From Antedon bifida (lineage: Eukaryota; Echinodermata; Crinoidea; Comatulida; Antedonidae): a DNA stretch of 64,000 bases. A program made the translations under genes and the position numbers. Where the stretch lies: contig OY727097.1 in the NCBI GenBank assembly GCA_963402885.1, positions 12,462,001 through 12,526,000 of the forward strand, written 5' to 3'. How positions within the stretch are numbered: position 1 is the first letter of the stretch; every line of letters begins with the position of its first letter. Below the pieces are notes generated by a model. That model ran no database searches. It was not told the DNA's origin and was given only the letters and a program-made list of their open reading frames with translations. Shown in pieces: positions 21,301 to 48,300 of this stretch.

Positions 21301-24300
21301 ACGCTCATCGTCAGATATATGTAATGAGAAATATACAAACAATGATGTTGTTGTGATGTCGTGGGTGGGTGTTAGGTGTGGCGGCGTTCATTCGGGAAGG
21401 CATTGTTGGTAACGTTTTACAATAAAAAAAATTCCCCTAGATATGAACAAGTACAACACCATATTTGATATTATCAAGAAGTGATAACAGTAAACAATGG
21501 TATGAAAATACTTGGTAAATAAATAGATATAGCAGTCAATGAATTATTCAACACATATAATTGTGTTTGTGTTATAATACAATATTGTGTGTATAAATAT
21601 ATGTTGGAGGCGTTTATTAGAGGGTGGATGTTGCATATTACAAATATGTGTTATGGGGGAGACGGCGTTTATTCAAATAAATTCGGTAGGCCTAATTGGT
21701 ATAATCAATACATTATTTATTTTAAATCAAACATCAATAATGAAAATCATCAGTGAGCTGTTTCGGCATAAGGAAAACGTTTTAAACGGCTTGCAACATG
21801 GGCCAAAGAACCCCGGGTCTCAATGGCGATAAAGTACATGCAGAGTACCAGAACGTAACAGTTCCAGAAACGGATGAAACACGAATTTAATTAAGTATGA
21901 AAGCAAACATACAACGGACAATGATTAAAAGTTTCCCAAAAAATTGGTGAATTAAACTAAAATTTGAACTCAATCATCACCGTGATTAGTTCGGGATATC
22001 CGCGTTAACTCACACAGTGTAACAAACATCTTAAAATATGCACATACTCTATGACCTGACAAAAGAAACTATTCATAGTGCTGAATTATGTATATTTTTA
22101 CAGTATTAAGTGCGAATAACCAATCAAGTTAATAGTGTATGTTTTCTTCGCAAAAAATCCAATGTATTGTATGTGATATTTTTCTTGATAGTATAATATT
22201 CAATTTGTTGGTGGATATGATGCATTCTGAAAGTCCTTTAAAGGTTTTGTTAAAAGAAACATCAACTACGATTTAATTTTAAACAATGTTAAAATATGTT
22301 TTGGTATCGGAAAATTTCATAGTTTCGATGCATTTAATGTACAAATTTTGAGAGCTAAAAGATGTATATTCAACTGTAACATTTCAGAGGACCCACACAT
22401 TTAAAGTCATTGTTAAAAGAAATATTGAAATAGAAAAATATATTGCTTTTGAAAATTATAATGTGCATGCATATCCTAAAATGGAAAAAATTAGGAGTAT
22501 AGTCTGCCTTTTAACTACTCATGATATGTATACATTTTTGCTTGATTGGTTTTGTATCTAGCGAAAATGCGAAGGTTTGGACAGTTTTCTCACCAAGTGC
22601 GCGCGACAGGTATTACAAAGTGTTATTTGACGATTATTACAAAGTGCGACAGGGAGTTTACAGATAGTTATTATAATTATATGCGATGTTTTTTTTCCAA
22701 GACAGTTTGTCAGGAATCGACTCTATTTTTGTCCTTTCTTGAGTTTCGGGATCATTAATTTGATGAGATTTGACTTGGAGGTATCCAAGTCCATCTTTGG
22801 TTGATCTGACTTCTCAATGTCAAGATTAACCTTGATGGGGCAGCGTTGTTTCGAATCATGGTGCAGTTTTCGACAATACAGTTATCCTCACTACAAAGTA
22901 GACCTGAGTTGGTTCATTTAGGTATGTTATTACCGATACGTCCTTTAAATTGTAAAATTAGCACTTTGTTTTAATCACACTGAATTACATAGCACATATT
23001 AGTATTAATGTTTGTAACACTTACATTTTCCTGAAGATCCAAATTAGCTCCAGCCTTGATCAAAATAGTGCAAACATCTGTGTGGCCGTTTTGTGCAGCC
23101 ACATATAAAGGTGACGCCCCATCCTGAAATATTACAAACATTATGTTATAGTATAATTCACTCTCAACAAAGTATTGTACTGAAATCAATACGATGTATT
23201 GATTTACCACAAATTACCACCTATAACTAAGTTTGGAGGATCGAGAGAGTTGTTTTTTATAACAAACTTGCAAGGCTTTACATTTTGATGGATTGAGTTT
23301 GAGAAAGTTGTGACTAGCCCAGTTATCTAGATCACAAACGTCAGAATCAACAAAAGTGGGATCGCTAGCACGACGGACCTCAACAAGGATAATATCGTCA
23401 ACATACTTAAATTTAGATGATTGGGCGTATTACGGCAGCATCGTTAATTATAACGTTACAAATAATTGGTCCAAACTTAGTACCATGAGGGACGCCACAA
23501 GAGAGCGTTACCCATTCAGAAAGTTCGGAATGGTAACGAACTCTTTGGCGTCTGTTGGTAAGAAAGTCAACTGCCCAGGGCAATATTTCACTTCGAACAC
23601 CAAGATCAAGAAGCTTTTGGATTGCAAGCGTATGATTGACGGAATCAAAAGCCTTGGTGAAGTCAGTCGCAACTAACGTACCGACTGTGTTTCGTTTGTC
23701 AGAGCCTTTATAAAGGGTATCCAACATCTCAACCAGACAATGAGTTGTTGAAGATCCCTTAATTCCAACAAATTGATGATGATCAATTCGGGGGGAGGGG
23801 GGTTGTGGTGTGGAAGATATTGTTACCGAACCATTTACAAACAAACTCCTCACAGACTTTTGCTAGAATCGACGTGAGGGATATAGGGCGAAGATTTGAA
23901 ACAATAGCAGATTTAAATTTAGGGATAGGGGTAATAGTGGCGTATTTCCACATTTGAGGAATGGAACCTTGGGCAAGGGATGCATTAAGAATACTAGTAA
24001 CAGGGATACTAAATTCGCATGCAAATTCTTTAATCAATTTTCCAGGAAGTCACCTCGGGTCCTGGGGTATTTCTGGCGTTAATTAATAAGGCTGTGAACA
24101 TTTCCCAGATTTGAATCTGGGGGGATGTAAGGTTGGAAGGTAGGCTGGTAGCTTATGGCGTTCAATCGGGCGGCTATTATGTGAGATTGAGGCAAAACTC
24201 TGATTGATTGCCTTAGCAATTTCAAAGTGGTCACTTTGGGGGACTCCGGGGACTGAAATGTTGGGATGGAATTGTAATTTATTGCTCATAATTTGGATTC

Positions 24301-27300
24301 CTTTATGCCAATTGGATGGATCATTCTTTATTTAAATTTGAAAGGCGTTTTTGATAAAAGGATTTTTTGCTGATTTGATAGAGAAAATGATTTTTTTTCT
24401 AAGGAAGCGCCACAGGTACGTTTTTTTTTGGCAAAAGGCTACTTGGCGCTTTTTATTGAGAATCTTAATTTCTGGGGTCATCCAAGATTTGTCATTAGTA
24501 TGCATTTTAGAAGTTTTTTGTGAAAAGTGAGTGTTAATAGCGCTATTGACTGTACGATAACATAAATCAGCCTTAGCTTGGGGTGACTTAGCTTCTAGGA
24601 CTTCAACCCAAGATTGGCCATTTATCCACCTCCCAAAAACAAACATACGATGCTTAGGCATAGGTCTAAAAATACTTTTCCTAATACTACCATTTAATTT
24701 AAGGCCGCTCGGGGCCCAAAAAACATAATTATGGTCACTATTACAAATTGGTGCACCAACAACTGGTTTACAATAAACGTTATTAATGTTAGTAACAATA
24801 ATGTCCAAAATAGCAAGTTCACGTGTAGGTGTCACGAACACTTGTTTCATAGAGTGAGCACGTAAAATTGGGTTGATATCAACTCTGTTAAAATCGCCCA
24901 GTATGACGAAACCAATTGCCGGGTAACTGATCAACAGTAACAATTATGTGGTCAACTAGCACTTGCTGATGTTAATATTTTGGAGGTATATAAACAGCAC
25001 AGACAGCTATCGCAAACACCTTGCGTGGGAGTCGGTAAGGACGAGCATACAGCCACAAACATTCAAGAACATTGTGAATAATAACATCTTTAATCGGCGT
25101 TGCATGCAGGGATATTGTCCTTTACGTAGACGGAAACTCCGTCACCAGTTTTTTCCTCTCTTAATTTAGTGAAAACATTGAAGCCATCAATTGATAAGAA
25201 ATCTGTCGAGATTGAATTCGACTGCCATGTTTATGTTACAACAGCTATATCAACAGGGGATATACAGTTATTCTTAATAACGGCTTCTAATTCGTCAATT
25301 TTGTTGAGTACGGAGCCGCGAGTGTTTATAAGTAAAACAAGGCCATATACATGGCTGCAGTCGCGTGCTCAAGTTAGTGTTTACCGACCAACCAACCGGA
25401 ATTGCTGAACATGTTTACAAATTTGGAAAATGTTTAATAACATTTATGACAATGACAATGACAATTTCTTTTATTTTCTTTGTAAATAAAGTAAATAAAT
25501 AAACAACAAAATTAACATTTATAATTACAAAATTGATTTAACAAAGAAAAGGGGAACATTCTTGAAGCAGATGCTTATATTTTTTTTAATTGACGTGACG
25601 TAGCCTGTCACTTTTGACGTGCTCGTATAACGTAATTTCGAGTTGTAAAGTGAATCAAATATGATGACATTAAAGAAAGGTTGTAAAACAGAAATCGGGC
25701 AAAAAGATTGCGTATTAACGTGCAGTGCGCGTGCAAAAATCTGCGCACTCATTGCAATTTTTCAAACGCTTAAAATTGCCTGAAACGTACTCTAATTTCA
25801 TCGAAAATAAATTTGAAAATGTTGAAAATGTTAAGCCCGCGTACGGATGCGTTATATGCGCTACGCACGTAATTGTATTGCCATATGATGAAAAATAACC
25901 TGAAATTTATGAGTACCAAATTTTATTTAATTGTGATTCATGCTTGTAAAGATATGATTACAAACGTGATTTCGTTAAATTGTGCGTAGACCGCGTAATT
26001 TTTGATTGCGCACCTTGAAAAACATAACCACATCGAAAAATGGAATTAGCTAGATGAAACTTATATCAAGACAAAGTCATATACAAGTTTGTGTTTACCG
26101 ACCGACCGACCAAACGACCGATATGATGCACTGTAGAGTCGCGCGCACGCGACTAAAAACAAGTAGACCACCAACGGTTTTGGGAGCGAAATGAAAAGTG
26201 TTCTTACCCAAATCCGCCAGATGCTTGTCTTTAGAGATCGTGTTTACATATATTAAATTGGCATTAGGCCTACGTATCATGTAGTTGGCATCACGAAAAT
26301 TAGCGATATGTCCATAGCACGAATAAAACAACACGTATTCTACGCTTAGTACCACCACGTTGGCCTCGTTTTCTTCGTTTAACCCGCTTGCAGGTGGTAC
26401 GCAAATAGTTCGTCGAGTTCACGTTGTTCCACATGTGCACTACGCTGCTCCCGTGGTATGCATAACATTTAAACAAGATACAAGATAACGTTATTGTCAA
26501 ATAGTTCATCAACGAAAAATTTGATTGGTTTTTCTCATGGCAACTTAATATAAAAATAGAATAAAATCAGTAAAATGTTAAAAGACAAAGTAAAATACAC
26601 AGAACTGTAAAATATGTACAGATAAGGATAAATGCTATCTGGTGTTCCCAGGTGTTCGAAAATACAATTATTTGTGTTTGTCGTCATTATATTTAAATAT
26701 ACATTGTGGGACAAATGACAGTCGGTATACTGTGCTGTCCGTAACCTTGATATTACTCTTTATTCGTCTACACCCAGTACGATTAAACACGAAGGATGTA
26801 CGGAGTGGATGAGTATCATCGTTCATAATTGCAATTCTTTTCTGTTCCATTCGATTAACATACATTTTCATAACACTAGGCAGATTATTATCTCCATTTA
26901 TGCATTTCTTAGCTCTTTTAACTATGCGTTCAAATTGATTTTTATTGTATTCATACGTGTTACCATAGTAGCAAGTTAAGTTAAACATTAAAACACTTTG
27001 TATAACGGCTTTGTAGAAGAGTACAAGTATTTCTTCATTTACACTAAAGTTTTTGAGTTTCCTAATGAAATTCTTTGCGAACAGTTGTTGCAGCCTGGTC
27101 TGTCCAGGTAAGTTTCTTATCAATCATAGTTCCTAAATATTTATATTTGTCAATATTTCAACAACTGCTCCGTCGATTATAAGTGGTTCAATTTGAGGTT
27201 TTTTAATTCTGAAATCAATAATTAATTCTTTAGTTTTCTTAATATTAAGATCTAAGTAAATTATCGCCACACCATTTTGCAAATCTATTTACTTCATCGA

Positions 27301-30300
27301 AGTAACCGTTAAGTTTGTCTGACATGAAACCCGTTATTACAGTATCATCTGCATACTTGATGATGGAGCATTTAGGGTCTTCACATACATAGTCACTAGT
27401 ATAGAGTGTAAATAAAATGGGGGATAATACACAGCCTTGTGGGGCGCCTGTGCTGACTTTGCATACTTTAGATTGCGCATCTTCTATCTTATCATACTGT
27501 GGTCGTTCCCTAAGGTAACTGATAAGCTATAACAACATTTTAGTATTGACATTTAATTTATACAATTTATCGATAAGTAAGTGAGACTGGATACAATTGA
27601 AAGCACTGGAAATAAAAGTTGATCTGATGAAAGATCTTGGCACATCAAAGTCATTACTGCATCATCTACACCTCTGTTTTGACTATAATGCAAACTGATT
27701 AACATCATTATCAATATCATCATTCGACATAATCATTATAAGCATCATTCTTTCCAAACATTTCATTGGATTTGGTTTCAAAATTATGGGACGGTAATCG
27801 TTTAAGGAAGTAATTTGTTTAGTTTTAGGCAATGGTGCTATTATTGAAGTCTTCCAAATAGTTGGGATAACTCCAGTATCAATAGTACGTTTGAAAAAAG
27901 TTGTAAATACTGGAGAGAGTTGGTGACCACAAAACTTCAGCACTTTATTGCTAATACCGTCAGGACCCGTAGCTTTGTTCACCTTAACACCTGGGAACAC
28001 CTGCCCGACTAAAGTTTCATCAATACTTAAAATAGTGGATTTTTTATTGGTTTCGTTTTCTAATGACCTTATGTTATCGCTAAAATCATTTTATCAAATC
28101 GGCAGTAAAATTCATTTAGGTCATTTGCGAGTTTAAAATTAAAATTGTTAGTATTACTATTATCATTACTTTCTTTACAGTTAAAACCAGACATTGTTCA
28201 CATTGCCTTCCATGCTCCGCGGCTATCACAGTTCTTAAATTTATTTTCAAGAGTTCTACCATCTTCAGATTTACCGGATTTGATTAACTTGTTGATTTCT
28301 GTTTGTTTCAGTTTAACAAGACTACTTTGTTATCTGCAAAAGCCCGTTGTTTCTCAATTAATAGCAGTCTTATGTTTCTCGACATCCATGGTTTGTTATT
28401 TGCGTACACTTTCTTGTATCACATTTCCAACACAATATTTAATGTACTCATTTACAGCAGTAGCATTAGTGTCGATATTATTATTGTCGACCACTGACCA
28501 CCAGTCCGTACATTCGAAGCAACCGTGTAATGTATCCACTGCATCTTCCGTCCAGGCGCGGTATTCAATTGTGATTGGCTTGAATTGCTTTTAAAACGTT
28601 GTCTGTATTTCGGCAGCATACACATTGTATTATGATCAGATGCTCCTAGTGGCACTCGCGATTTCACATTATATTCACACTTAATGTTTCTGTTTCTAAT
28701 TTCATCAATTTTATTTGGTAGCGATCTAACGTTTGCAAGAATGATGGAGGGGAGTGGGCTCTTATTACCACTTTTCCTCATTTTTACCCGAGCCCCTCCT
28801 TTCGTACCTTGTAGGAAACTGAGGTTTGGCAACAAATAACATCAGAAAAAACAGTAAGGTAATCCAGCAAAACACACGAAAGGGATATCAAAAACACATA
28901 CAAGATAGACATCAATTCAATGACTAAAAAACATCACAAATACAACAGGAAACTTAAGTCCGGAGAGCAGCTAATGTAGCGCTACCGAGACGACGAAACT
29001 ACTGTCTTATGGCTGTGCACAATGTTTGTTGGCGTTCCAGATAATTATATTTTATTATTTAGGTGTTTTAGTATTATTTATGATTTTCAAACAAATTTTA
29101 AAAGCTTATGTGCATGGAAATAGTGTAGATTTCACATCTTCTAAATCAAATGTCAACTGTATACGTGAAGCATAATTAACAATACATTTAAGTTCCAACT
29201 TATCTTGCAGTTTAAAAGAAGCTATACTGGTATTGGTTGCAATAGCATCTGACAAACGGCATGCTTCGATAACTGCTGTAAAAGTAACAGGGCTGAATTT
29301 GAACCAGAACACTGGGGTAACCCCATATTCATCACGAAAGATGCCCTGGATTATTTATCATCCTGTTTTAAATCAGATGTAATTAGAATTCTATGGACCT
29401 CAACAGCATCCCTATTTCTAGATAAATGTCATTCATACTCATTGGGAGTAGGCTGGTTTATTTAGCAAAAAGAAGATATCCTTTAATTTGCATCAGCTTA
29501 AACTTATTATCGTTTGACCAAAATTATTAAAGATGGGAGCCAATAATCAAATATATACTGCTGATGCTAAACATGCACTGGCCTTGGCTAGGCTAAGCCT
29601 GACTAGGATGAGCCTTCTATCTTTGCTCAAATTATATCCATTTCTTTCCAGTAGCCTTTTATAAACATTCGCTGTCATTTCAACATTTGCTATACTGGAC
29701 AATTATCACAAAATGTAATAATATCATTGTGTTTTGGTTCTGGTCAAATTGGATAGAAAACAAACTCCCTAGCTACTGTAAATTTTGCTATTTGAAAATT
29801 GGGTTAGATTCAATTTTCCTACAAAGATGATATAATTTCATGAAAAAAGGCCATTATAAATGTAAATATTGGTAACAATTGTATAACAATAGATATTCAT
29901 GTCTATGTTTTATTGTATATTTATTTAATGCAAGTCATGTAAAATTTGTCCACACAAAAAATGGCATATCCTTTACCATTGTGTGATTTGATAATACCAC
30001 CAATTACCTAGCTGGGCAAAGTTTGACAGCCTTGTTCTTGCATTGACACTAAGTCGCAGGATTGGTCATATCAATAAATAGCAAACTATAGCCAAATAGC
30101 ATAAACATAGATAGCAAGGAAATAGCTGTGCAATTGCTATACTTGATATAGCATAATATAGCAAATAAAACTTTGCAATTGCTATACTGTACTTGATATA
30201 GCATAAATAGCAAATAAAACTTTGCAATTGCTATACTGTACTTGATATAGCAAACACATAGCTGTGTAATTGCTATACTTGATATATCCATAAATAGCAC

Positions 30301-33300
30301 ACAAATAGCTGTGTAATTGCTATACTTGATATAGCCATAAATAGCACACAAATAGCTGTGCAATTGCTATACTTCATATAGCCATAAATAGCACACAAAT
30401 AGCTGTGCAATTGTTATACTTCATATAGCCATAAAATAACAAATGCTTGAAATTGCTGTACTTGATTTAGCCATAGCAAATAAATAGCTGTGTAATTGCT
30501 ATACTTGATATAGCAATAAACAGCTGTGCAATTACTATACACCATATAACCATAAATGGAAAACAAATAACTGTGCTTTACACCAGCTATAACAAACAGG
30601 CTGAAAATAGCCTTGGAATAGCTGTCTTACTGTGACATATTGGTCACTTGCATGAAACCTCAGCTACAGCTGCTATAGTAGCTATATTTCAACTATACCA
30701 TACCATGTCTGAATGTAGTCACAGTTAAAGCCAAATACTAATATAACAATTACACAATGCTACAATTAATAACTACAGAATTAGATACACTTAATACACA
30801 TTGAATAGTTGACAAGTTTTGTTTTAGGGTATACACATTAGGCGATCTACATGAAGGTGGTTATATCTTGGCGGTTTACATCTGGAGTGATGTTTTTTAA
30901 AGGGTTTGGTTCAGTTGATAGTTAAGAGATTATTAAGAGGGTTTGGTTCAGTTGATAGTTGAGATTATTTAGAGGGTTAGGTTTAGTTGACAATTCAAAA
31001 ATTATGAAAAGCGGGGATTCAGTTGATACTTGAGATTATTTAGAGGGTTAGCTTGAATTTTACGTTTATAGTATTTTTTTTCAACTTCAGAGTTTTATTT
31101 TCATGCTATCGCAAAACTTATCCACCATCTTGTTTCACCTTCTAGGAAGTCACCAGATATGGTGATGAAAAAAACTCTTTATAGTAGAATTTTACAAAAT
31201 GTTGTATTTGACCATTTTAAGGGAAATCCTTGATTTCTATTTCAAATATTTGATTTATGCACAATTAACCAGATATTATATTTAAAATTCATGCCTGTAC
31301 CTGAGCTTGAACTTAAATAAAGATTATTAACCATTTGATGTTTTCTTTAAGATAATGTATTGTATATGCATGCATTTGTCTTGCTTGTATACTATTTTTT
31401 TATATAGTACGGTACTTTTACACGTAGCATTTATACGTTGCAAATTCGGTAAGAAATTGTGGTCCTTAATATAAAATGTGCCACTAGTTCTGCAGCCAGT
31501 TATTTTGCTACAATTATCAAAGAACCTATAGATACAGTGCATTGATTGGGTAATAGAATACTGTAGTTCAATACGGTTAGTGTAATTTTGCGACGGTTGA
31601 AAACTTCAACCTTTAAGATTTTTTGTTGGAGACATTGATATACGCACTGTCATATGGAACTTTTAAAGTTAAAACAGCCCCAAATCATATATATAATATT
31701 ATGATAAAGTGGTGTTTGCGTTTGAACTACGACTAAAAATGTATCCAGGCTCCAAAATGTGTTCAGGTAATATATTTTTGCTAAATTCTTAACTATTGGT
31801 TTCATTTTGGCGTTACTGTGAGGGGATATGTTTAAAAAAATGTTTTAACAAATCAAATGGATACCTCGATCATATCTATGTAGTGTACCATTTTTATAAA
31901 ATAGTGTTGCTCTGTAGGCTACATCACACAATACAATACACAAATAGAAAAATTACCATTAAAAAAAGACATTCCCTAACATGCAGTTCTCTAAATGGTA
32001 AAAACTATTACGGAATCTATTTGTATGAGGGGTGTTGGACCGCTTCCTTGAACTTAAAAAATAGTGCATATGGGTTGGGTCTTGCAAAATGAAATGTGTT
32101 TTTTTATTAAAGTGACCTCTAATCAATCAAATTAATAAAAAAATAAATTCCCGGTAAACCATGCAACAAAGATAAAAGTGAGAATACTTTCAAAGACGTA
32201 GGCATAATGGGATGTTTAAGTCTATGCATAAAAGTCAAAACGTTGAGCATGGGCCTTTTTGATAGCCTTAGTAATAATAAATTGTCTTGCCATCTAAGAT
32301 CTCAGTGATTTATTTACAATGTCAATTCCAGATAGGTGATTTACATTTTGTGTTATAAAATGTCGAGTGTTTCACCTGCTTTGATAGAAACAATACTGTA
32401 ATGAGTTGAAAATGTAACCATATTAGTGTATTGGTAAACACATGATGTACTGCAAACCAAACTAGTGTATTTGTGCACATAATAGTAGGTGACATATGTA
32501 ATTAAGAGCGTTTTATTTGACACGAAAAAGCATGTGAAGTCATAAAATACGTACTTAATCATATAATGTAGTACATTTTGAATGTTGACATGACATGATA
32601 AACAATAAACATGTTCAACAGAGTTTAACTTAAATTTTTCTCGGGTTACTTGAATTTCGTTCTTAATTACGGTTTATTGTTTTATTTATTGTAATGCGCT
32701 GTGTTCTCTATCGATCGATATTACATAGTTTGGATGTCACGCCAAAATTGGTCCGGTCGGATCGATTTTGGTTGTAATCAAGCGCCAAAACTGGTCCGGT
32801 CGGATCGATTTGGCGTTGAAACATCCGCAAAAACAGGTCCGGCCTTTAAAATCGCTTATTTATTCTTTAAAATGTATTAAGAAGCCTGCAAACAGTTCAA
32901 GTGGATAAAGTAAACTATGCTTAAAGTAAATGTACTACATATTACCGTACAAACGAAAAGAAATTATCGAAACACTAATTAAAGAAACTCTAATCGGCTT
33001 TTGGGATATTCTATTGTTCAGTTCGTTTAAAACTAAATAGCGCCCTCTAGTAATTTTATATTATGTCTAAGATATTATGTACAAACTGAATTATGAATAC
33101 GTCTTGGGCGTATTCAATAATGATTAATAATTAGTATTATTATTTTAGGTTGTTATCATTACTGCTATCAGTATCATTTTTTTTTTGCCTTTGTAAGAAA
33201 TTACACCAGCCTTATTTTTTTTCCAGTCCACATTTTGAGGTGCAAGTGGCCACTAAGGGCCTCTTATTAATAGTATAAAACAACAACAATAATAACAATC

Positions 33301-36300
33301 GATATGGGTAGCAATACTAACATTAATAAAGATAAAAAATCGACAAACGACACCACAGTGGAACGACCGGTTCCCTCATTCACGAATTTGGTTATACGAT
33401 GAATGAACCCGAGATTCGTAATAGAAAAAAAGAGGGTAAAACAGAGATTTTTTTTTATCACCCCCACAGCTGTTCCAGAAATATAAATTAAGTGTAGCGC
33501 CCCCAACGTTTCATAGCGTTTTATGGAGTAGCGATTCCGAAAACATATTGTATACAAACCACACGAGGAACCCGGAAGCAATCAAGCATAAAATGAATGT
33601 TTTTTAATAGCCAATAAAAACAAATAAAGACTGCGAAAGCCAGAAAAATAATGAATATTCATTAGAACAACCCTGGATGAAGGTGAAAAACATGTTGTCG
33701 TCGTTTTATCACGTGGATTTTAAGCGGTAATGTAACTGAAAGTTACCCAAAATTGTACACCCAATGCCAGTTTTTTTCTCAAGTGATACTTTTAAAAAGT
33801 AGGTATAAATGTTGTTTTCCATATCAGTTTAAAAATAATTTTTTCTGTTGAATTCTTTGATTTAGTTGGATACTTTAGTTATCCTTGAATGTTTTAACAA
33901 GGTTCGTATTCATATAGCCTGGCTGGATTTTTTCCTATGCTAGCTTATAATAGGCTATGCCCAGGCCTCCTTGGGTGGTTAAAACCAGCTGTGTAAGACT
34001 AATGGCTGTTTATTTTTAACACGTAAACATGTCTATTCGGGGGCCTGAGTGACAGTTGACCTGTTATAAAGCTGATTAATTACTTGTTCCTGGTCCTAAT
34101 TAAAAATTAGGCCTAGCCTAGGCCTAAGCTATTTTAATATTCATTCATATTGGGAGGGGAGTACAGAGTAGGCCAGGCTACAGGCCTATCTAGGCCTATA
34201 CTATATATAGGCTAGGCTACATTATCAGCAGGTTAAATGCCTAGCAGCCTACCTAGCATGTCTTAGTCAAAGATCTGTAATATATTAATAGAAAGAAGCT
34301 ATAGAGTACTGTGACATTAGATATTTAATTATAAATGCATATTTCTTTCATATTTGTATATATTATTTTGATATGCAATTTCCGTTATCAATCAATAATA
34401 TATAAACCAAATTAAAATAGAATAACTTCCAAAAAATTCAATTCAATTACAATTCATATACAGTACCATTTGTTAAATATTTACAAAATCATTGTTTTAG
34501 CAATAACCAAAAAAAACACTACCATTCATACAGTATACTGTACATAATATACAATACTGTAACAATTAATTATAACAAATGTATATTTCTATCATATTTG
34601 TATTGTATATTTATTATTATTATTTTGATATGCAATCAAAATCTGAATCAGTAAATAACATCAATTTCCGTTATCAATTAATTAATATATTTAAACCAAA
34701 TTAAAATAAAATAACTTCCAAAAATTTCAATTCAATTACAATTCATATACCATTCATATACCATTTGTTAATATTTCAATTAACTGAGTGGGAAATAGCA
34801 AACTATTCCTCAACTTTTCTGCACTTGGGCCATGCTGGATCTCAGGTGAAATAAAAGTCAGATGTGACTTCATGATTGACATAAGCTGGTCAAGGTTGCT
34901 CTTTAATCCATATACCGCCCTTTTCCGGCGATTAAATTCCGAGTGGATTAATTCGCCGCCTTGCTCAGCTAAGAGTCCCACTCCTACTCTCCATTCTCTC
35001 ATGAACGGTATTGTGTGGTGCTCCAACATGTGCAATTTTGGTTGAATCACATTTGGAGCGATGCGCCTGTATTCTTTGGAGAACAGTTTTATGTAGGTTT
35101 CTGTTTTGTGAAAAAAATTGTTTTTTAAATTTTAACATTATATTTGAAAGAATATGTATTGTCTTTTGAAATGACCAAAAATCATGAATTAAATGTTAAT
35201 GTAACAAGAAAGTTTATAATGAGAATTTAAATTATACAGATGTTTGAAGAAATTAATCACACATTAAGAATAGATAAAACCAGACAAAATTCACATAATT
35301 TGGTCATCAGTTTTTGCTTACCATATTGATCTATTTCTGAATCAGTGATGCGCCTAGTATGGTTTATGCATTCATGGACATTTGTAAAGGTTTTGAATAC
35401 AGGTGTAAATGATTCCTGTATCTTGTGCAATTTTGTTTCAAGCAGTTGTTTACAGTTTGTAGGACAGTAATGCATCTGTTGCTTTAAAGTCATTGAGACA
35501 CCATCCATGAGCTTTTCTATGATGTTGAACTAAAAATAAAATGAATAGTTTAAAATAAAACATTTACAGTATGGCGAGAGTCAATCGCAAATAATTCTTA
35601 ATTTTATTACTTATTTTGCTGTGTAAAAATTAACAAACTTCACATTTTAGAAATTTTAGAATAGCATCAATACAATGGGTATTTACTACATTAATGTTGA
35701 TTTAAGTTTGCGGGACACTTTCATTTGATTTTGCCGTGCAAACCTTCTAACAATATATTACTACAATGTTAGAAAAGTAAATTTTATAAAAAAAACAAGT
35801 ATCCTTTTTTATTGATTTTTTTTATTAGTTACTCACTTTGCATGCTCTGTATACATGGTTTCCCACAAAACTTTTTCCGTGGTACTGCTGTCGAGGAATT
35901 TTATTTTTCCTCAACACCTCGTCTATTTTTGTACATAGAGGTCCAGTTCCAAATTTTATCTCTTGGTTCATAGTACTTCGCTATAAAAATTTATAAAAGA
36001 AATATAGCATTAATTTTTCTATTTAGTATTGTATGTTTTAGACATAATTTTAAATTTTAAAGGTGTATACTGTAGTACTGACCAAGTCTTTGACCTCTTG
36101 TTCTTTCAGATTTATTCTGTGGCCAGTCTCTGCAATCTCTGCAATCTTGTTATGCTGTTTTGTCACAAGTGACACTGAGAGCTCGTTTCTTAAATCCTCA
36201 AGATTCTCTTCTAAAGACTGGATTTTAATCATTGTAGCATTTCGATGCGCTGCAGCTTCTGATATGCTTTTCTCGAAGTCTGCTAGATGATCACCTGAGA

Positions 36301-39300
36301 TTAAACAATATTGGTCAATCAAATAAATTTCAATCTGCATAAAAAATGAGCATCAAAATTAGTATATTTAAAAAATGTTAATGATAATATATGGATAATT
36401 CATAGAAAAATAAGTTTCAGCCAAAGGTTTGTTTATTATGCATAAAAACAGCAGGATAAACAATTTCGAAATTCACTAAATTCTATGCTCAAAGGGACAA
36501 TTTATATTTAAAAAGCAACTTGACCAATTGAGTTTATTTAATGTCAATGTAAAGTTGAAACAACATTTGAAGTTACCAGTCAAGATTTCACCATCCTGTC
36601 GCATGTTAAAAATTATAACATCAAGATTGTGCACGTCTTTTTCCAGCATATCATAGAGTTTCTTAAACAACCCAAGAGAAATGTGTAATGCTGGTATTGA
36701 CACCTGGAAAAATAGTTGATTGGGGAAATATTTAATAAAGAGGTATATTTATAAATTACTGTAACAATTGTTTGTTTTGACAGTTATTTTATACTAACAT
36801 TGTTATTTAATATGGAAGTACAAACACACATTTCATTGTTTGGAGTGTGTATTAAACTTTCTAAATTGAGATTTTAATTAATTTTGAATTTAACCTAACA
36901 TAAACACTGGGGACCTGTGCTGTTCTGATTATTTACCTACCCTGTTTAATTCGATGTCTACCAGGTATGGCCTAACAACGCTGTGCGATATTGTTTTGCT
37001 TTTTTTTTTGTCACTTCCATGGTCTACAAAAGACTTGTAGTCACGATTGTAGGTCTTCAGACATCTACAGGCTTGAGGAACATTGTTGGTTCTAATGTCA
37101 TCTTGATTGCAAAAACAATAGATGCAACTGTACTTTCCTTTTAAAAAAATCAATTTTTAAATCTACATAATATATATAGTACTTCAGTTTTGTGTACCAA
37201 TTCCAAACAATGAGAGCTAAATGAAACTGGAAATTGTACTTACCATTTGGGCCAACAAGTCCATATACCTTTGACAAAAAATCATAATCCCCAAAAAAGA
37301 ATAGGCGGATATTGTGAGTTCTGTAAAATGAGAAGTTATTTTCATTCAATTACCATGAATTCTAGTGTAATTAATTACATTAATCATAATTAAAGATATA
37401 CAAATTATGTAAAATTTTCAAATTAAGTTGCATATTATAATTATGTAGCTCTGCTATACTTAAGTCAGTGTTACTCATTCCAATATTATACTACTGTATT
37501 TAATATTACTTTTTGGTCTTTGGTGAGGTCCACTGTTTTCCATCTAAATCCATGACTTCATCAAGAACCAGTTTCAAGCCTTTTTCGACATTAACTATAA
37601 AATCTGGTGCTTGGAATGCTAAAATGACAATAATATTGTGCAGTGCATTGGGTTTAGGTAAACTGCAAATTTGAACTTCAAATTTAGTGGTATCACCACC
37701 CTTGTCTCCTCCAAACTTGAGAAATATGTCTCCATCTTTGAAGAAGTTCAATTCATCAGACCTACAAAATTAAAATTGCTTGTTAATTTTTGGTACTTGA
37801 TTATTTTGTTAAAATATTAAATGTAATTTAACTCTTCCCTGACTAGATGTGTAATTATTTTATTCTTATATTTATACCACATGCCCTCTATTATAGTATA
37901 TATAATATGTGCCAATAATACAGTACTGATGTATGAAATAGGTTTGTTTAAAAATAACAAAAAATGTTACATACATATCATATTTGTTTAGGTAGTCATA
38001 GATTAGTTCTTTGATTTTGGTTAGTCGGACTACTGCAACCTCCTCCAAAACAAGACCTCCTATAGATGTGGCTCCATCTTGTTTGACAAACATGTATTCC
38101 ATAGAATCTACTATGTGATCACCAATAATCTGTTCTTGGCAAATGCGCATTTGCCTTTCAGAAGCCAAAACTCCTGGGCAAAATCTATATTTAAAAACAA
38201 AAAATGTATATACAGTACTGATTAATTATAGTTTTTATAGTCAATTGAATTCTAAATTCAATTTAAAAAAAGTAAACTGTTGACTGAATAATAGTAAACA
38301 GTGGTGGCACCAGGATTTGCTGGACGGAGGGGCTGTGTGGCCCGACAGAGGTCCACATACCCGACACGAAAAGCAATAATAAAATAAATTACCTCCGCAG
38401 TGCTCGTTGCTGGCTCCAATTTATGCGGCAGGCATTCATGATTGCCAAACATCTTTGTGGGTCCATTTTCTCTTCAGTACTGGTAACACTAACAGTTGTT
38501 GTGCACTCCGATTGTTTAACAATGTTTATTGGCTGAATTTGATAAAATAAAATATTTGTATGATTTATCAAATAATAATGTATATGAGTGGATCAAGAGT
38601 GTAGGCCTACATTATGATAAATTTAAATTAATTGTAATGGGTTAAAAAACTCACCCGTCCTCGAGTCATAAGTGACACTTTCTTGTTATTCATAAGGTCT
38701 TTCCGTACTATGTTGTGTGCCATGCTTTTCAATTCTTTTGGCCAAACCTCATTTGTTTGGGCAGTACATGTAATTTCTTCAACTGCACTTATAATTTTGG
38801 TGAATGCCTGTTCTTTAAACGTTTTGCAAACATGATTAGGGGTTTCTGACCACACTAATTGTACTTTACATTGTTTGCATTGCAAAGGGACTCGTTTAAG
38901 CGATTGTTCTACAATAAGTGGAACTGGTTTGAGATCTTTGTCATTGACAATTTTGCTACAGTTATAACAATCAATTGATTCTCGTCCTACTGCCTTAAAC
39001 AATTTTTTTATGCAAAATGTACAAAAAAAATGTTGACAAGGTGTCTGCTGGCTGTCAATTGACAACAAATTATTACAGATCTGACATTCATACACTTGAT
39101 TATCATCATTTTCAACAATTTCAAATTGAGGGTTTAGTAGCAAGTGCTCATGGGTGGGAATAAAACTGCCAGTAGTATTGCTTCTGTTTTCGGGGAACTT
39201 GTATTTCTTCTTTTTTTTTGTCTTTTGTGAGATTCACTCACTTTTATTTCATTCTTTACAATTGTTACAATAATCTATATCAATTTTGTTTCAGTAGAAA

Positions 39301-42300
39301 ACTATCTCTGCAGCTTAAAGTTGTTTTTTTTGTTTTTCTTATTTTTACTATTTTACATGTATAAAAAGTTAAAGCATTTAAAAAATAGACAAAAGTTATA
39401 TAAAAATATACATCACATAATATAGGTTCACAATTGCCATTACAACATCACAAAATAAAATATACTGTAACTCATATAGCACCCGTAAATAAAACTAGTA
39501 AGGTAGAAACCATACTAGAATACTAAGTATTGTGTCGTAATAATATTTTCTCGTGTTTTTAGCCTGTTATTGTTTAACAACATTTTTAAATTGCTAAAAT
39601 AATATTTTTTACTTTTTCCCATTTTTTTATGCTTTCCTCTCTTTTATACACTATATCACATTCCATTCTGAATAGAATTCCTTGTTTAAAAGATTTCCAT
39701 AAATTAAAATAACTTTTATTTGTAACATCAGCAAGTATCTTTTGTTTATAAACCGTGAAAGCAGCAAATGTATATATAAAATCAGTAAGAATATTTCTTG
39801 TTCCAATTACCAGATTTTGAAAAGACATGTTTGTATGATTGGTACCTTTTAAAACAATCTCTATTTTTGTCCAAAAACCTTGAATAAATTTACAAGTAAA
39901 AAACATATGCTCCTCATCTTGTACCTCTCCACATCTACCACATATATTAGTATCTTTTAGTTTCCAGATAAACAACCTTTTGTTTGTTGCTAAAATTCTA
40001 TTTAACAGTTTGTAATTAAAGTGTATTAATTTTTTATCTTTCATTTTACAGACTTTAGATAACCAACATGACTTCCAATCAATATTCAAATTATGAAAAT
40101 ATTTTTCCCATTTTCCTTGACAAACCGGAGGGACAAACATTTCCTCCACAAAACAGAGATAAATACTCTTTGTTGTGATGTCCTTATATCTATTCTTAAT
40201 GACATTTTCTGTTATATTATAATAACAATTTTCCTCGTATTTGATTATAGTTTTCCATTGTATTGGTATCGCTTTTAATAAGCACATGTATTCATTTAAC
40301 CAGTTTGCTTTATACTTTAATTTTACCAACAATTCTTTTGAAGTTATGAATCTATTTTCTTTTATAATATCCTTCACTAAAATAATGCCACATTCAATCC
40401 AATGTTTATAACATAGTGATTGGTTTTTAAGTTGTATTAACTTATTACCCCACAACTGTTCATTCATTATATCATCATATGTGTCTACACTTCTTTTACA
40501 GCAATTATTATACTTTATGCATGCTTTCAACATACTCTCATAAAACATAGGCATTTTATGTATAAAGTGGTTTTCATCTGTCATGTTAAAAAGAATATTT
40601 TCTGAACATAAATTATTAATATAAAATTTTGGAATTAATTTCCATTTTGCTTCATCTTCATGTAACAACCTTTTTAGCCATGTGACATTAAGTGCTTTTG
40701 TATGTAATTTAAAATCTGGCATTTTAATTCCACCTTCGTTTAGGTTTCCAATTAAGGTTTTCCTTTTTATTTTTTCAGATTTTTTACTCCATAAAAATGT
40801 ATAACTTTGTTTGTTAACTATGTCATAAACATACTTTGGTACAGTAATAATATTTGCATTGTATGTAAGTTTTGCTAGTGCAAGTGACTTCAATATAATT
40901 ACTTTCCCATAAAGTGTTAAATTTCTAGAACTCCATAATTTCAAAATCTTTTCAAAATCAACCAGTTTATCACTCCAATTTTTAGTTTCACAAGTCTTGT
41001 AATCATATCCCACATATATTCCTAATATCTTTATCGGCTTTTTTTCCCAACATAAATCAAGTGGTTTATCACTTCTATTTTTCCATTTACCCATCCACAT
41101 AGCTTTTGATTTATGTTTGTTTAATTTCAAGCCTGACATTTCACAAAATTCTTCCACAGTTTTAACCGCTGTATGAAGACTCTTTTCATTACCAACATAA
41201 AGTATTGTGTCATCAGCTAACTGACTTATTCTAGCTTCGACATTTACATTTGGTAATTTAATTCCCTTGTAAATATTACTATTTCTTATATTAGAAGCCA
41301 TTATTTCGACCACAAGTATAAATAAAAGTGCCGACAGCGGACACCCTTGCCGAATGCCTCTTTCCATTCTGATGTTTTCTGATACCCATCCATTATTAAT
41401 TGTGACACTCTCTACTCTTGTATTTCTTCAGCCTTCGACCAGGTCTTGATTGTTGACTGAACAAGTAGCACGCCAAGCATTTGTCTCCATGGTCTTTGAA
41501 ATTAAATGGTGTTATGTTGTGTCCACCAAGTGCGCTAATGTGACAGCTTGCACATAGCCATTTAAGATTTGGATCCAAATTATATTCATAAGTGTACTTT
41601 ACATCTTTTATTTTAAATTTTTTTCCGCAACAGTAGCAAAGGGAACTCAATGCCCTCTCGTGGAACTCCATTACTGTATATGAAATAAAATATAATATAA
41701 AAAATATTAAATAAAAATAGCTCCGCAGTTTATCTGTGAAATATATTTGTAATTGTATGTGTAATTTTTATTAAGGCCTATATTATAGTTACAGTAATGA
41801 CTGTCACTCAGTCACACCAGCTAGCCTAAAAATGCACCAGGAAAGCAATAATTATTATTATAAACACATGCCATTAATTATTTGATAACAGTTATAATGA
41901 TTAAATTTAGGATTAGGATAATTAAAGGTTTTACTACTACGAATTTTCTATGTTTGGGCCTAGCTTCTTCCTAGGCCCACATTACTGTCAAGTTTATCGC
42001 CGGCGTCAACGCACTTTCTAAGCCTATCGCCAAACCGTTTTCTCGCCGATAACAATAACAATGTATAAAGGGGTTGCAAAATATGCGAGTTTTACTAAAA
42101 ACTGAACCAGGCTATATTAACATAACTTGTATTATTTTATTTATATAATAATGATGGCCTATATTCTACTTCGTTTTTTTTCTAAAAAAATGAATTATAT
42201 CCAAAAAATAAGTAAAGAATACAATGATATTTTCTACTTACGATTGTTTACTATTTCATTACACAGTTTATCTCGACTTCCTGGTTTATGTGTGGGAGAT

Positions 42301-45300
42301 TATTTCAGTAAAATGGACAATATCGTCGTTTATTTATTAATTTATATTAAAGAAACAATAAAATATTTATTTTTTAATTGAACATAAACTTTTTTAATCG
42401 TTTGGTTTTGTATAAAATGTGTTTTCTACATAAAAACTCACGGTGGCAAAATTTAATTTGCCGTTCGCGAAATAATGGTTTGTAAACAAAATTCATAAGT
42501 TCGCGCGGATCGGAGAGCGTCGTCTGCTAACACTGAGGGCGCTTTACTTTTTTTGATATCTTAACACTAGATGAAACAGCTGTGCCCCAAATTATGGACT
42601 TTTAAGAATTTAATTACTTATTACGCTCTAATAATATCACTGGTTGGTGTATGCGTGGGTTGCGTCATCATCTATAGTGTTTTAGCGAAAAATAAGAGGG
42701 TTAAATTTGCCATTTTCTCAAATTATCCAAAATATGAACTTTTTAGAATTCAATTATTATACGCTCTAGTATTATTATTTAGGCCTACTGATAGTACTTG
42801 TAATTAAAAACTTGTAATTGTAAAAAAAACAACCCAGGACCGCAGCTGAAAAAAACTGTCGCACATATAACGTGGATGGGATGGATGCGGACGACTAAGT
42901 CTATACACTCATTCTCGCTCAACTTAAAATGTTATAACATAGAGCTGAACGTACAATATACAATGAATTATTTGACTAGCCTATAGGTTTATTTCAATCT
43001 TGCAAAACACAATTCATATATTTAATTCAAAATGTATGAGTCCTAAATAGGCCTACTGTATTTGATAGTTACAATGTAATAATATATTAGGCCTACCTGT
43101 ATGTTTTATATTTTTATACAGTAAATACTGTAATTTAAAACAATAAAATTCACTATACATCAACTAAGGCAAACATATTAAAAATGGTACGCTTAACCAG
43201 TGCCTTGCGTGCGAAATTGCGCATTAACATTTTAAAATGCCTAAAATTAGGTTTTGATCAATTTTAGAACATGATTTAGGCCATTTGCGTGTTTCAAAAA
43301 AACTGCGCAAAAACACGATTTTGTTACTTATAAAACGTAAACAATTTTACACAAATTTGCACCGTATTTGAGTCCATTCAGACTTTAAATCTATACGAGC
43401 ATGTTAAAAATGACAGAATGCGCAAATTAACTATTAGGCCTAATTTAAATTTAAAATGGTAAGCTTTTAAAAATTTAAATAACTCTTCGGAAATTTCGTC
43501 GACCCTATAGATATAGTAAATCATTATTACTTTTTAACCAATTCAGTACGCATTCCTAGGTATTTTTAAGTGCTAAACAAATTAATAGATAAAGAAAATA
43601 AATGTTCTGTTTTTATCGCGAAATGTGGGTTTATCTAATGTAATATAATGGTGTTATGAGGTTTCTGACTTGTAAGGAAGACTCTACTCGCTTGACTGTC
43701 GTAACACATATATTGTTTATTCAGTATAATACTTGATACAATAATACTTCAGTATAATATACAACTATAACTAAGGAACAGAGGATAGGTGATGCTGTCG
43801 GTGAGATGTGAGATGTGTAGGTCTGCTTCTGGAGAAGTGGCTGTGAGGTGTGTGTTCCGTGAGGTGGCTGTAAGGTGTGTCTGGGCTCTTCTGAAACTTG
43901 GGGGTATATTGGCTTCGGTTCATTTGCATATGTCACTACGTCATCTGTGAGGGTAACGATTGGTCCTAAGTTGATCCAGGGGTGTTTAAGTGGGAGTGAT
44001 TGATCTTATCTGGGGAGGTTACAATGATGAATTGGCCCTGTCGAATCTTTGCTTAAAACTGTCAATATCTAATTGTTTTACGATGGGAACAGTTAGAGAG
44101 GTCAAATAAACTGTTTACTTTTGGGATTTAATTATGAGCTAAATGGACTAAATGTACTTTTGAAACATCTGGACAAACTCTCCTTTGGACTTTCTGGGTC
44201 AAGTTTGTGAACTTATTTGAATTCTAATACAAAGGTTGATTTCTAAATTATAAATGCATATCATTATATTACACTAATGTCAGTTATCCTGACTTTACAA
44301 GAAATTCTAATTTTATATATTTTATTCGAACTGTCTTGTTTGTTTTACTTTTGATATTAGTTATCTCAATTGTTTGGGACAGCACCATTAGTCCGTTTGA
44401 CGATACTTTTGTAAAGCTCTGTCTACATTATCAAACTTTATGTGACAAAAAATGTGATGTGCCCATAATATATGGACACGATATCATATCACTCCCCTGG
44501 GTTTATAGCCTCTCTACCCAAACAACGGCACACATGGTAAATTCATTTTTTTCTATTCATGTTTGTATATAAATGCGACGTATTAATATTGTATCGTATA
44601 AATGATATACAAAATATTAAGTACTATATGCAGTTACACAAAGTATACTGTATATAAAATGTAATTTTGCATTATCATGTAGATGATTATAGGTCTACTG
44701 TACTTTTGTACACGAAATAGATGGCGCATAGCAGTATTGGCGAAACTTAATCATATTAACGACACAATCTAGCTATTTTTAAATGCGAAATTATTTTGAA
44801 AAAACCTAAAGTTTTAGGAGGGACATTTGTTGAAGTACTGATGATGTATTGTCCCTTGAAAAATGGTAATGTTCCATAATAGTTATAAAAATGAAAACAT
44901 TTTTTTTCCTTTTTTTTTTTTTGGTGGAAAGGCAGGCTCAGTAGTCCTCATCAATTAAAAAAAAACAAAGTGTTCTTTTATATCATGCTAGTCTAAATTC
45001 GTGTCAAATTCATTTACTATCGTATCGGCTAAAACCATGAGTATTTCTGAAATCTAAATTTTGCAATATGTATGCAGACAAAGAATAACTAAAATTTAAT
45101 TCCTCACTTTGAAGAATAAATAGGTGATCATTTTATAATTTTACTGACATTTCATTTTAAAACAGATGCAGTACGTTAAAATACGATCACAAAACGTTGA
45201 TGTATGTCATGCTATAAGCTGATGCATACGCTTATTATAGTGCTGAGTTGTGCCTAGTATGTGTCATATACAATATATACAGTATTTACTATATACAGTG

Positions 45301-48300
45301 TAGCATAGGTGAAATTACGAAACACACATCATTGGTATGATGACGTTATCAAAATCAAACATGAAGATGACAATTTAAAAATGGATTAAAATGGAATATT
45401 CAACAAAAAATATTATATGAGAACCCTCTTTTTTAAAACCTTCAGTGCAAGTTAAAGTTATATATTATTAAAAACCAATTCTAAACCGCCCGGTGATATA
45501 CTGAAAATGTATTAAATTGAAACGATAAAATGGGGAAATATGTGAGAATATATTAAAAGAACCTTATTTAATCAAAATATATGAATACAATGAATGAAAA
45601 ATTATTTTTTACTATACGCCAAAGCCGTTCATTTTTATCGCAACTTTAGGAGAAAATGCAAGCGTATAAGCAACTGAAGAAAAGATATTTAGGCCTAGCC
45701 GAGATGTCATAAGTAAGCCCATTCATTTTCATGGCTGGTATCTTCAGAAAATAGAGAACTTTACGAACCCCTCTGATTATAGGTTTCTGAAATATACTGT
45801 AGTGCTGCTGCTGTGTTATCTGAGAAAGTTTATAATCTAATCAAATTATGTATTCAATTATCTCAACACAAATACCAATTGAAATGGCATGGTTTCTGTG
45901 ATTAGTTCTTTAGTTCTTATAAATATGTCTACTATAATCTTTCCCATCTCTTCTGAAAATTGTTTTCAATACAATCAATTGCCTGTTGTAAATACAAACA
46001 AGGAAAACGCTTAGCCACCATTACTAACAAGTGAGTTATCAGGGATAGTTATTTCAGGTTGATGTGCTTACATTTCCATCACATAACCCTTACATTTTAT
46101 CGCGTAAAGTATTAAGAGTACACGCCTGTTCAGGTGCGCCAAATTATTGCTCATATATTTTTTACCAAAATAATTTTGCAAGCATGGTAATGTATTGATT
46201 CAACATTACTTTGTTTACCAATTGGGGTTGTATATTTGTGAAGTAATAAATATTAACACTGTCAACACTCGGGAAACTACATTTTCTGGCAAAAAGCAAT
46301 GGATTTGATACCGCATGACATTTTTTCTGTTATTAACCATATTAGGAATTGAAAATAAATTTCAATTATTGCTATATTTTGGGGTTAAAGGTCACCAAAT
46401 ACCTGCCAAAAATACCAAAAAAATCGTATTTTAAAAATAAAACCATTAGAATAGTTTAGATTCACTGCTATTCTAGAAAAAATAACAGCAAATTTATCAA
46501 AACTGTTGTTTTTGCTCTTTTCAATTGAAATGTCATGGTTTCTCCCAATTTCCATGGTTACAAGACACTATTAAAATTGACCAAACATAACATTATTAGT
46601 GGATTTATATAATTTAAGATGTCTTCTTGCTAAACAATATTAAAAAATTTGGATTGCCAAATTTACCATTTTTAGACTTTTGGCGTTGGAGTAGTAAACA
46701 ACCCAATAAAAGTGACATTGGGTAGACTTGTAAATGGTAGTTGCGAATGAATTGCCGTTTCTTACAAAGGGAGCATACCGCCTTTCGTAACTACGCATTT
46801 TGGTCCCTGGATGTGTATAGCATGGCCCCGGATGTCGACGCGTTAGCTGGGCCAACTTCTAAATACATTTACTTTATAAATGTTTCTTACAAAGGGACAC
46901 CGCCAGACAAGAGCGGCGTCCTATCACTAGTAAGTATACTTGATTCAGATTTTGGTCCTTGTAACTTTGATACAGCACAAATATCGACGCGTGAACCGCA
47001 ATGGAAATGAGTTTGTGAGTTAGACGTTTTACTGTAATATTAAATATATTTGTTACTAGAAATTAGTTATAAAATATATTCTACAAAATTAGTAGGCCTA
47101 ATATTTTTGCCCCCTAAATGAAGTGGGTACGTGTCTGTTTATGAGTGAGAATCAATAAGGTATTTAATTAAAATGAAGACCGTCTTAAATTACTTGACAT
47201 GTTTCGATAAATATATTCTCATCATCAGAAATGTAATCAAAGCCTATAGAGTACTTGTATACTTACTACAAAGTTGCGTTTAAATGAGTCAATAATTAGC
47301 ATGAGAATAGATTTATCGAAACATGTAAAGTATTTTAAGACGATCTGCATTTTCGTTAAATGCCTTATAATATTATTGATTGTCACTCGTAATTTTGGTG
47401 GTATTATATATTTATGTAATTAATACACAGTGAAAGAGCTTATTTTAGTATCCTATAGTAATATATTTTCTATATAAGAGATATGGTATTTCAAATCAGG
47501 TACAAAAGCCGACGATCCGAGCGAATTACATGTTTAAAAAAATCGGAAAACACCCATTTTATTTGTTCTTTTCAAAACACATTGCACGTCGGCGAGGTTC
47601 GATGGCATGCGTGACTGGCGGAACAATGAAACAAAAATGAAAAACGAAAATGGTATGTCGTGTTGTCTGTAGGCCTATACAGTAGTTAGTTTTTCAGATA
47701 CCACCTTTGACAGTAGCAGAATCGGGTGTTTATTTCAAGCTCACATAAACGGGCAATGGAATCCTCGTTATTAAAAAAAAACCCATTATTTAAGCTTATT
47801 CACTACAGTATATTTAAATTATATACTTATTAATTTATATATTGTTTTCTCTTTTTACTTGGTTAGATAAAAAAACATGTTACCGAGAAACGGAAAACAT
47901 TCTAGTTGAAATTCTGTATGTATACCCACAGATTGCACTATTTTCTGTATACTTAATTAGTGTGTTGCTGATGGGAATAAATAAATATTTCAAAAAAATT
48001 AATAAAAATATTTTCCAAAATAGTGGTACACAACAATGAAAGAAAAAGTAAAAACAACATTTTTGTTACGTTCTTGTCACTAGATATATTCTTGCGACTG
48101 AATTGAACTTTGAAAATGCCGGTCAGATGTAAAAACAAGTTACAAAGAATAAATCAGCAATTGTACTCATCCATCAAACTAGCCGCCATCGAGAAAATAC
48201 TCAATTCAAAAAAATAAACTTATTTTCGGGTGATTTTTTTATATTAATTGTCAATTGTTTTATATTATTGTAGATCATTGTTTTCTTTGTTTTTATTATT

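Follow-up and report, generated by a model that had tools for sequence, protein, structure and literature searches.

What kind of gene lies on the minus strand between positions 41671 and 34754 of the stretch of Antedon bifida DNA analyzed here (64,000 nt of contig OY727097.1; hereafter the window), and how is it related to RAG1? The original prediction, made from the letters alone, had described a gene with a RAG1-like N terminus and a DDE core carrying zinc and catalytic residues in the RAG1 order, and had offered the N-RAG-TP group or a distant RAGL relative as its nearest kin. We conclude with high confidence that positions 33465-42584 hold a Chapaev-superfamily DNA transposon of the cut-and-paste type, whose one recognizable gene is the present one and codes for a 903-residue transposase. 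The link to RAG1 is real but already published, in that some Chapaev transposases have a RAG1-type N terminus and a RING (PMC4411706; papers given by PMC number are cited throughout from excerpts of their text). This copy of the transposon is disrupted by a long interspersed nuclear element (LINE) that landed later than the element itself. The open frame, the motifs, the ends, the duplication and the insert are direct observations on the window.

A transposase gene with ten predicted introns, interrupted by a LINE

The gene runs from 41671 to 34754 on the minus strand and consists of an N-terminal piece (N piece; 41671-41423, 83 codons), the LINE insert and a C piece (39203-34754) of 11 exon pieces with 820 codons and a stop; the N and C pieces were analyzed separately. 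Their 83 + 820 codons give the protein length of 903 residues that had been claimed. All 10 predicted introns of the C piece (102-307 nt) have GT-AG borders, and the G+C content is 38% in exons and 24% in introns. The coding frame of the C piece holds one stop in 821 codons, the terminal one, compared with 59/820 and 67/820 in the other two frames. At the stop rate seen in the introns (158 of 1967 codons), the chance of 820 open codons would be ~1.5e-30, a figure that ignores the freedom in choosing splice sites. When splicing, open frame and motif residues were re-derived, the predicted gene with its RAG1 order was borne out: all eight named residues (D402, D478, C497, C500, H812, H817, E834 and E838) are where they had been placed, and the spacings are 19 for D478-C497 and 21 for H817-E838. 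The coding pieces, all on the minus strand, are as follows.

41423-41671, minus strand: N piece, the part of exon 1 upstream of the insert; zinc array of the N terminus, a Chapa-domain candidate; presumed start codon at 41671
38655-39203, minus strand: exon 1 after the insert; C3HC4 RING, then a zinc finger (RAG1 ZDD-like)
38393-38532, minus strand: exon piece 2 (spliced translation)
37975-38184, minus strand: exon piece 3; the DUF1280 match begins here
37510-37761, minus strand: exon piece 4; D402, within the DUF1280 match
37244-37320, minus strand: exon piece 5; D478
36941-37137, minus strand: exon piece 6; C497-x2-C500
36577-36703, minus strand: exon piece 7; LH motif PALHISLG
36083-36294, minus strand: exon piece 8 (spliced translation)
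35837-35980, minus strand: exon piece 9 (spliced translation)
35322-35529, minus strand: exon piece 10 (spliced translation)
34754-35100, minus strand: last exon; H812-x4-H817, E834, E838 and the stop codon

Between the N and C pieces lies a LINE of 2206 nt (41416-39211), flanked on both sides by a 13-nt duplication, GAAGAAATACAAG, and ending 3' in a short A stretch. It encodes an RVT_1 reverse transcriptase (Pfam, E = 9.7e-17), and it is apparently 5'-truncated because its open reading frame starts inside the reverse transcriptase profile. Since the reading frame stops a few codons past the N piece, into the LINE, this copy cannot make the full protein.

39211-41416, minus strand: LINE in exon 1, apparently 5'-truncated
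39198-39210, minus strand: LINE target-site duplication, 3' copy (flank sequence)
41417-41429, minus strand: LINE target-site duplication, 5' copy (flank sequence)

Core domain and superfamily motifs

Against the Pfam library of 24736 families, the C piece lists six. The strongest is DUF1280 (PF06918; E = 1.4e-14, 54.7 bits against a cut-off of 25), which spans C-piece residues 264-372, or ~347-455 of the protein, with D402 included; the same family is matched by a 240-aa stretch alone (9.8e-15) and by the 520-residue core (1.4e-9). The other five are RING families, the best being PF00097 (E = 3.8e-6), and the claim of a C3HC4 RING is thereby confirmed. DUF1280 corresponds to Chapaev transposases, which are placed in clade II together with RAG1 (PMC3985635). 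The hallmarks given for Chapaev are duplications of generally 3 to 4 bp, CAC/GTG termini, and the motifs C(2)C, LH and H(4)H (PMC4079192). Each of these was found in the present element; the motifs are C497-x2-C500 for C(2)C, PALHISLG for LH and H812-x4-H817 for H(4)H. EnSpm, Mirage, Chapaev, Transib and RAG1 all have the pair C(2)C and H(3-4)H (PMC12730594), so that the pair alone would not settle the family; the original prediction was right to warn that it occurs in other DDE superfamilies.

Terminal inverted repeats and target-site duplication

The ends of the element, at 33465 and 42584, are newly found here and were absent from the original prediction. The sequence CACAGCTGTT matches at 10 of 10 positions between the two ends and, with the next three bases, at 12 of 13, and CCCC stands on both sides. 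The duplication is exactly 4 bp, the 5-mers differing between the sides. So delimited, the element is 9120 bp long, of which 2206 bp are LINE, with 1.3 kb and 0.9 kb lying outside the gene.

33461-33464, no strand: target-site duplication CCCC, left copy (4 bp)
33465-33477, plus strand: left terminal inverted repeat CACAGCTGTTCCA, agreeing with the right end at 12/13 positions, the first 10 without a mismatch
42572-42584, minus strand: right terminal inverted repeat CACAGCTGTTTCA, pairs with the left end
42585-42588, no strand: target-site duplication CCCC, right copy (4 bp)

The ends come from a scan of 3960 pairs of CAC-starting inverted repeats, 29000-34753 versus 41672-48000, with duplications of 3, 4, 5 or 8 bp. 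As the end statistic we used the length of the exact match, given a CAC start and a 4-bp duplication. A 10-nt exact match was reached in 0 of 1000 resampled pairs of 3-kb flanks and in 5 of 1000 for 5-kb flanks, and in none of 181 overlapping window pairs of the same spacing (longest match 7, with positions less than 3 kb from the real pair excluded), figures that flatter the pair somewhat since the statistic was chosen after the pair had been picked. The pattern CACAGCTGTTYCA, with no mismatch allowed, occurs in the whole window only at the two element ends; two mismatches admit three more matches, near or in a repeat array at 30106-30557. CAC ends with a 3- to 4-bp duplication agree with the prediction from the Chapaev literature. 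Inverted-repeat pairs from another search (the 25 listed of 26) were not taken as ends, nor were two pairs of the CAC scan with any termini and a 4-bp duplication (15/20 matches), which are AT-rich and have no CAC start.

Could the gene instead serve the host, as a domesticated Chapaev-like transposase retained for some cellular role? Its ten introns and its otherwise clean 820-codon frame would suit such a history, as would the absence of a second copy of the protein within the window. However, the gene is flanked by terminal inverted repeats and by a 4-bp duplication, the LINE breaks exon 1, and the window holds other transposable elements; we consider domestication quite improbable.

Relation to RAG1

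When the C piece was searched against PDB sequences, 56 matches were returned at E ≤ 10, and the top three were RAG1 constructs (E = 7.1e-6 to 2.4e-5) over C-piece residues 36-111, a comparison of sequence only. RING matches are shared with BRCA1 and TRAF6, and therefore only these top RAG1 sequences make the RAG1 case. At the other end of the protein, the last exon aligned alone to the RAG1 C-terminal stretch with a score of 52. Of 5000 shuffled sequences, 2 did as well, and six further 115-residue segments of the C piece scored 21-29 against the same stretch. In this alignment, H812 coincides with the leading His of HxxxxH in RAG1, and E838 with the Glu of GNE, the RAG1 catalytic glutamate. 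E834, which had been named beside E838, was rejected as the catalytic glutamate because the alignment places E838 there. In the N piece, the Cys/His pattern agrees by eye with the RAG1-type zinc array. Kapitonov and Koonin (PMC4411706) describe a Chapa domain, named after Chapaev, as a truncated RAG1 N-terminal part that precedes a RING in two subgroups of Chapaev, and the core of these Chapa-RING elements as only distantly related to other Transibs.

The RING-region match to RAG1 (best PDB match, E = 7.1e-6) and the alignment of the last exon could also be taken as signs of a true RAG1-like (RAGL/Transib) element. We hold this reading, already disfavored, to be highly improbable. DUF1280 was found, whereas the RAG1 core family is absent from the Pfam listing for the C piece and the core, where HMMER filters drop most matches above ~E = 0.1. 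The duplication is 4 bp, not 5. No kelch (RAG2-like) domain was matched in nine open reading frames in and around the flanks of the element (of 42 listed, the gene's own included), although short exons could be missed; in these nine no Pfam family exceeded its cut-off, the best (E = 0.008) being an unrelated membrane family. RAG1L proteins have C1-C3 fingers and a tail Cx2Cx3GHx4C, and many also have a ZDD (PMC7204232). The last cysteine of the present protein is C773, and the RAGL C-terminal tail is therefore absent. Thus the original interpretation was right about a DDE-type transposase whose zinc and catalytic residues follow the RAG1 order. Its suggestion of a distant RAGL relative is not supported, given the DUF1280 core, the 4-bp duplication, the lack of a RAG2-like match among the nine open reading frames and the missing tail.

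Several results weigh against our reading of the locus as a Chapaev element with RAG1-like modules. In the core, the DUF1280 match includes D402 but stops short of D478, the core alone finds no PDB sequence at E ≤ 10, and an AlphaFold model of the RING exon alone gave a predicted local distance difference test (pLDDT) value of 31. On the RAG1 side, the remaining RAG1 chains (1rmd and others; E = 0.0014-0.08), which extend to C-piece residue ~131-133 and cover the second zinc finger, rank level with or behind BRCA1 and TRAF6. The RAG1 C terminus, as a second stretch in the C-piece PDB search, scores 1.1 bits, and the last exon finds no RAG1 among PDB sequences, only one unrelated match (E = 0.56). 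For the N piece, the best Pfam family, of two listed, is RAG1_imp_bd at E = 0.15, below the cut-off and over the first 33 residues only (as a single prestated test, ~6e-6, or 0.15/24736); among PDB sequences the N piece retrieves no RAG1 chain, but two CHFR sequences only (E = 4.1 and 5.2). The claim of a RAG1-like N terminus accordingly holds in part: it stands for the RING region, where a RAG1 chain comes first in PDB, and possibly for the N-terminal zinc array (E = 0.15). As for the ends, they are known from one copy only. Over 20 nt the pair 33465/42584 scores 13, the same as the pair 30834/46815, which also has a 4-bp duplication, and three pairs without such a duplication score higher (15, 14 and 14); only the unbroken 10-nt match singles out the pair 33465/42584.

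A displaced block in the two ends

Beyond the terminal 13 bp, the two ends share a further block of ~30 bp, ATAT..AGCGCCCyCA.

33481-33510, plus strand: left subterminal block, nt 17-46 counted from the terminus; its counterpart lies in the right end
42529-42559, minus strand: right subterminal block, nt 26-56 counted from the terminus

The gap from terminus to block is 3 nt on the left and 12 nt on the right, with AGCGCCC at 32 and 42; the block is thus displaced by 9-10 bp, about one helical turn. An equally high similarity arose in 18 of 5000 window pairs drawn at random and in 6 of 5000 composition shuffles; by an ungapped shared-segment score, the counts were 29 of 2979 for random pairs and 21 of 2000 for shuffles. 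A further similar stretch, at nt 75-102 and 159-187 of the ends, was rejected (20/2965 random 200-mer pairs and 11/2041 flank pairs as high).

V(D)J recombination uses 12/23 signals. That the ends described here are bipartite and asymmetric in a 12/23-like manner, each with a 13-bp CAC terminus and a displaced ~30-bp block, is a proposal that we consider unlikely. With a single copy, an ordinary 10-bp insertion or deletion explains the displacement equally well. The displaced 12/23-like block is possibly new: among the open-licence papers listed in searches on Chapaev, titles and abstract beginnings showed nothing on unequal Chapaev ends, which may still be published. If other copies showed the same, unequal ends would be paired in a 12/23-like manner in the Chapaev branch too, beyond RAG/Transib, and the 12/23 rule could be older than RAG.

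Proposed mechanism

RAG1 and the CMC group suggest the following picture of the fold, catalysis and mobility of the transposase. The predicted layout is a RAG1-type N-terminal zinc array, a RING with a second zinc finger, and a DDE nuclease core whose zinc residues form CxxC and HxxxxH. The N-terminal part would dimerize, and the RING may have ubiquitin ligase activity, which has been reported for RAG1. The core would bind the CAC...GTG ends, which the transposase molecules would pair. D402, D478 and E838 would hold metal ions, and both ends would be cut at CAC. Joining of the ends to target sites staggered by 4 bp would then leave the CCCC duplication.

Other features of the window

A PIF/Harbinger-type pair lies in opposite orientation toward the end of the window, with DDE_Tnp_4 at 59006-59794 (plus strand; E = 1.9e-40), Myb/SANT at 60968-61471 (minus strand; E = 3.1e-18), and between the two genes a 98-bp tandem array at 59941-61009 (Tandem Repeats Finder, TRF). 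A fragment of another retroelement (RVT_1, E = 2.1e-10) occupies 23413-23862 on the minus strand, and near-identical protein segments (FWAPSGLKLNGSIRKSIFRPMPKHRMF...), compared by eye, mark 24332-24943 and 52930-53325, both on the minus strand, as two copies of one repeat family. At 12073-15780 there are three near-identical units 1541 bp apart (open reading frames at 12073, 13614 and 15155), built of 21/42-bp repeats on GTAATCCGTTCAAACGAATTA-like words and each with a near-identical 171-codon open frame; at 17159-17603 an array of a 21-bp unit (TCATGCAGTACACACCAATCG) is open in all three forward frames. A death-domain exon (PF00531, E = 3.9e-11) was found at 2667-3014 on the minus strand. Rfam at its gathering threshold and a tRNA scan gave 0 matches each.

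Comparison with known systems

Relatives were sought in viral contigs, where the C piece had no pattern match and the last exon had 11, none related, and in prokaryotic genome contigs, where the 57 pattern matches of the last exon were likewise all unrelated.

With canonical Transib elements, the present one shares a DDE core with CxxC and HxxxxH (PMC12730594) and CAC ends; canonical Transib, however, is core only (PMC4411706) and makes 5-bp duplications (PMC8355894), whereas the duplication here is 4 bp. Vertebrate RAG1 and invertebrate RAG1L have the same order of N-terminal zinc array, RING dimerization domain (ZDD), D, D, CxxC, HxxxxH and E, with E838 on the catalytic Glu, and a ZDD is recognizable here from sequence. 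The present core differs in being unrecognized as RAG1 by Pfam or by PDB sequence search, in having no RAG2L found beside it, and in its 4-bp duplication.

N-RAG-TP of Aplysia, which the original prediction had named as perhaps the closest group, may belong to the same group of Chapaev elements with a RAG1-type N terminus, a placement compatible with the Chapaev assignment that we regard as possible but doubtful. It shares a RAG1-like N terminus by description (PMC8355894), and Aplysia is listed in the legend of the Transib-superfamily tree of PMC4411706. Yet the excerpt of PMC8355894 describes N-RAG-TP as a wholly N-terminal-like sequence, and the two can be compared by description only.

Chapaev3 has the same superfamily motifs, but its duplications are TWA, 3 bp (PMC4079192), whereas the present one is CCCC. 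The nearest known system is Chapaev with Chapa and RING domains (PMC4411706), which shares the DUF1280 core, the CAC...GTG ends, the 4-bp duplication, the C(2)C, LH and H(4)H motifs, the RING and probably the RAG1-like N terminus; no difference from it was established. As this kind is already published, the value of the present element is as material and not as discovery, unless the unequal ends prove general. The assembly of RAG1 has been argued from elements of this kind (PMC4411706), and the locus adds a well-delimited Chapaev example in which RAG1-like N-terminal modules, the RAG1 order of residues and the element ends occur together.

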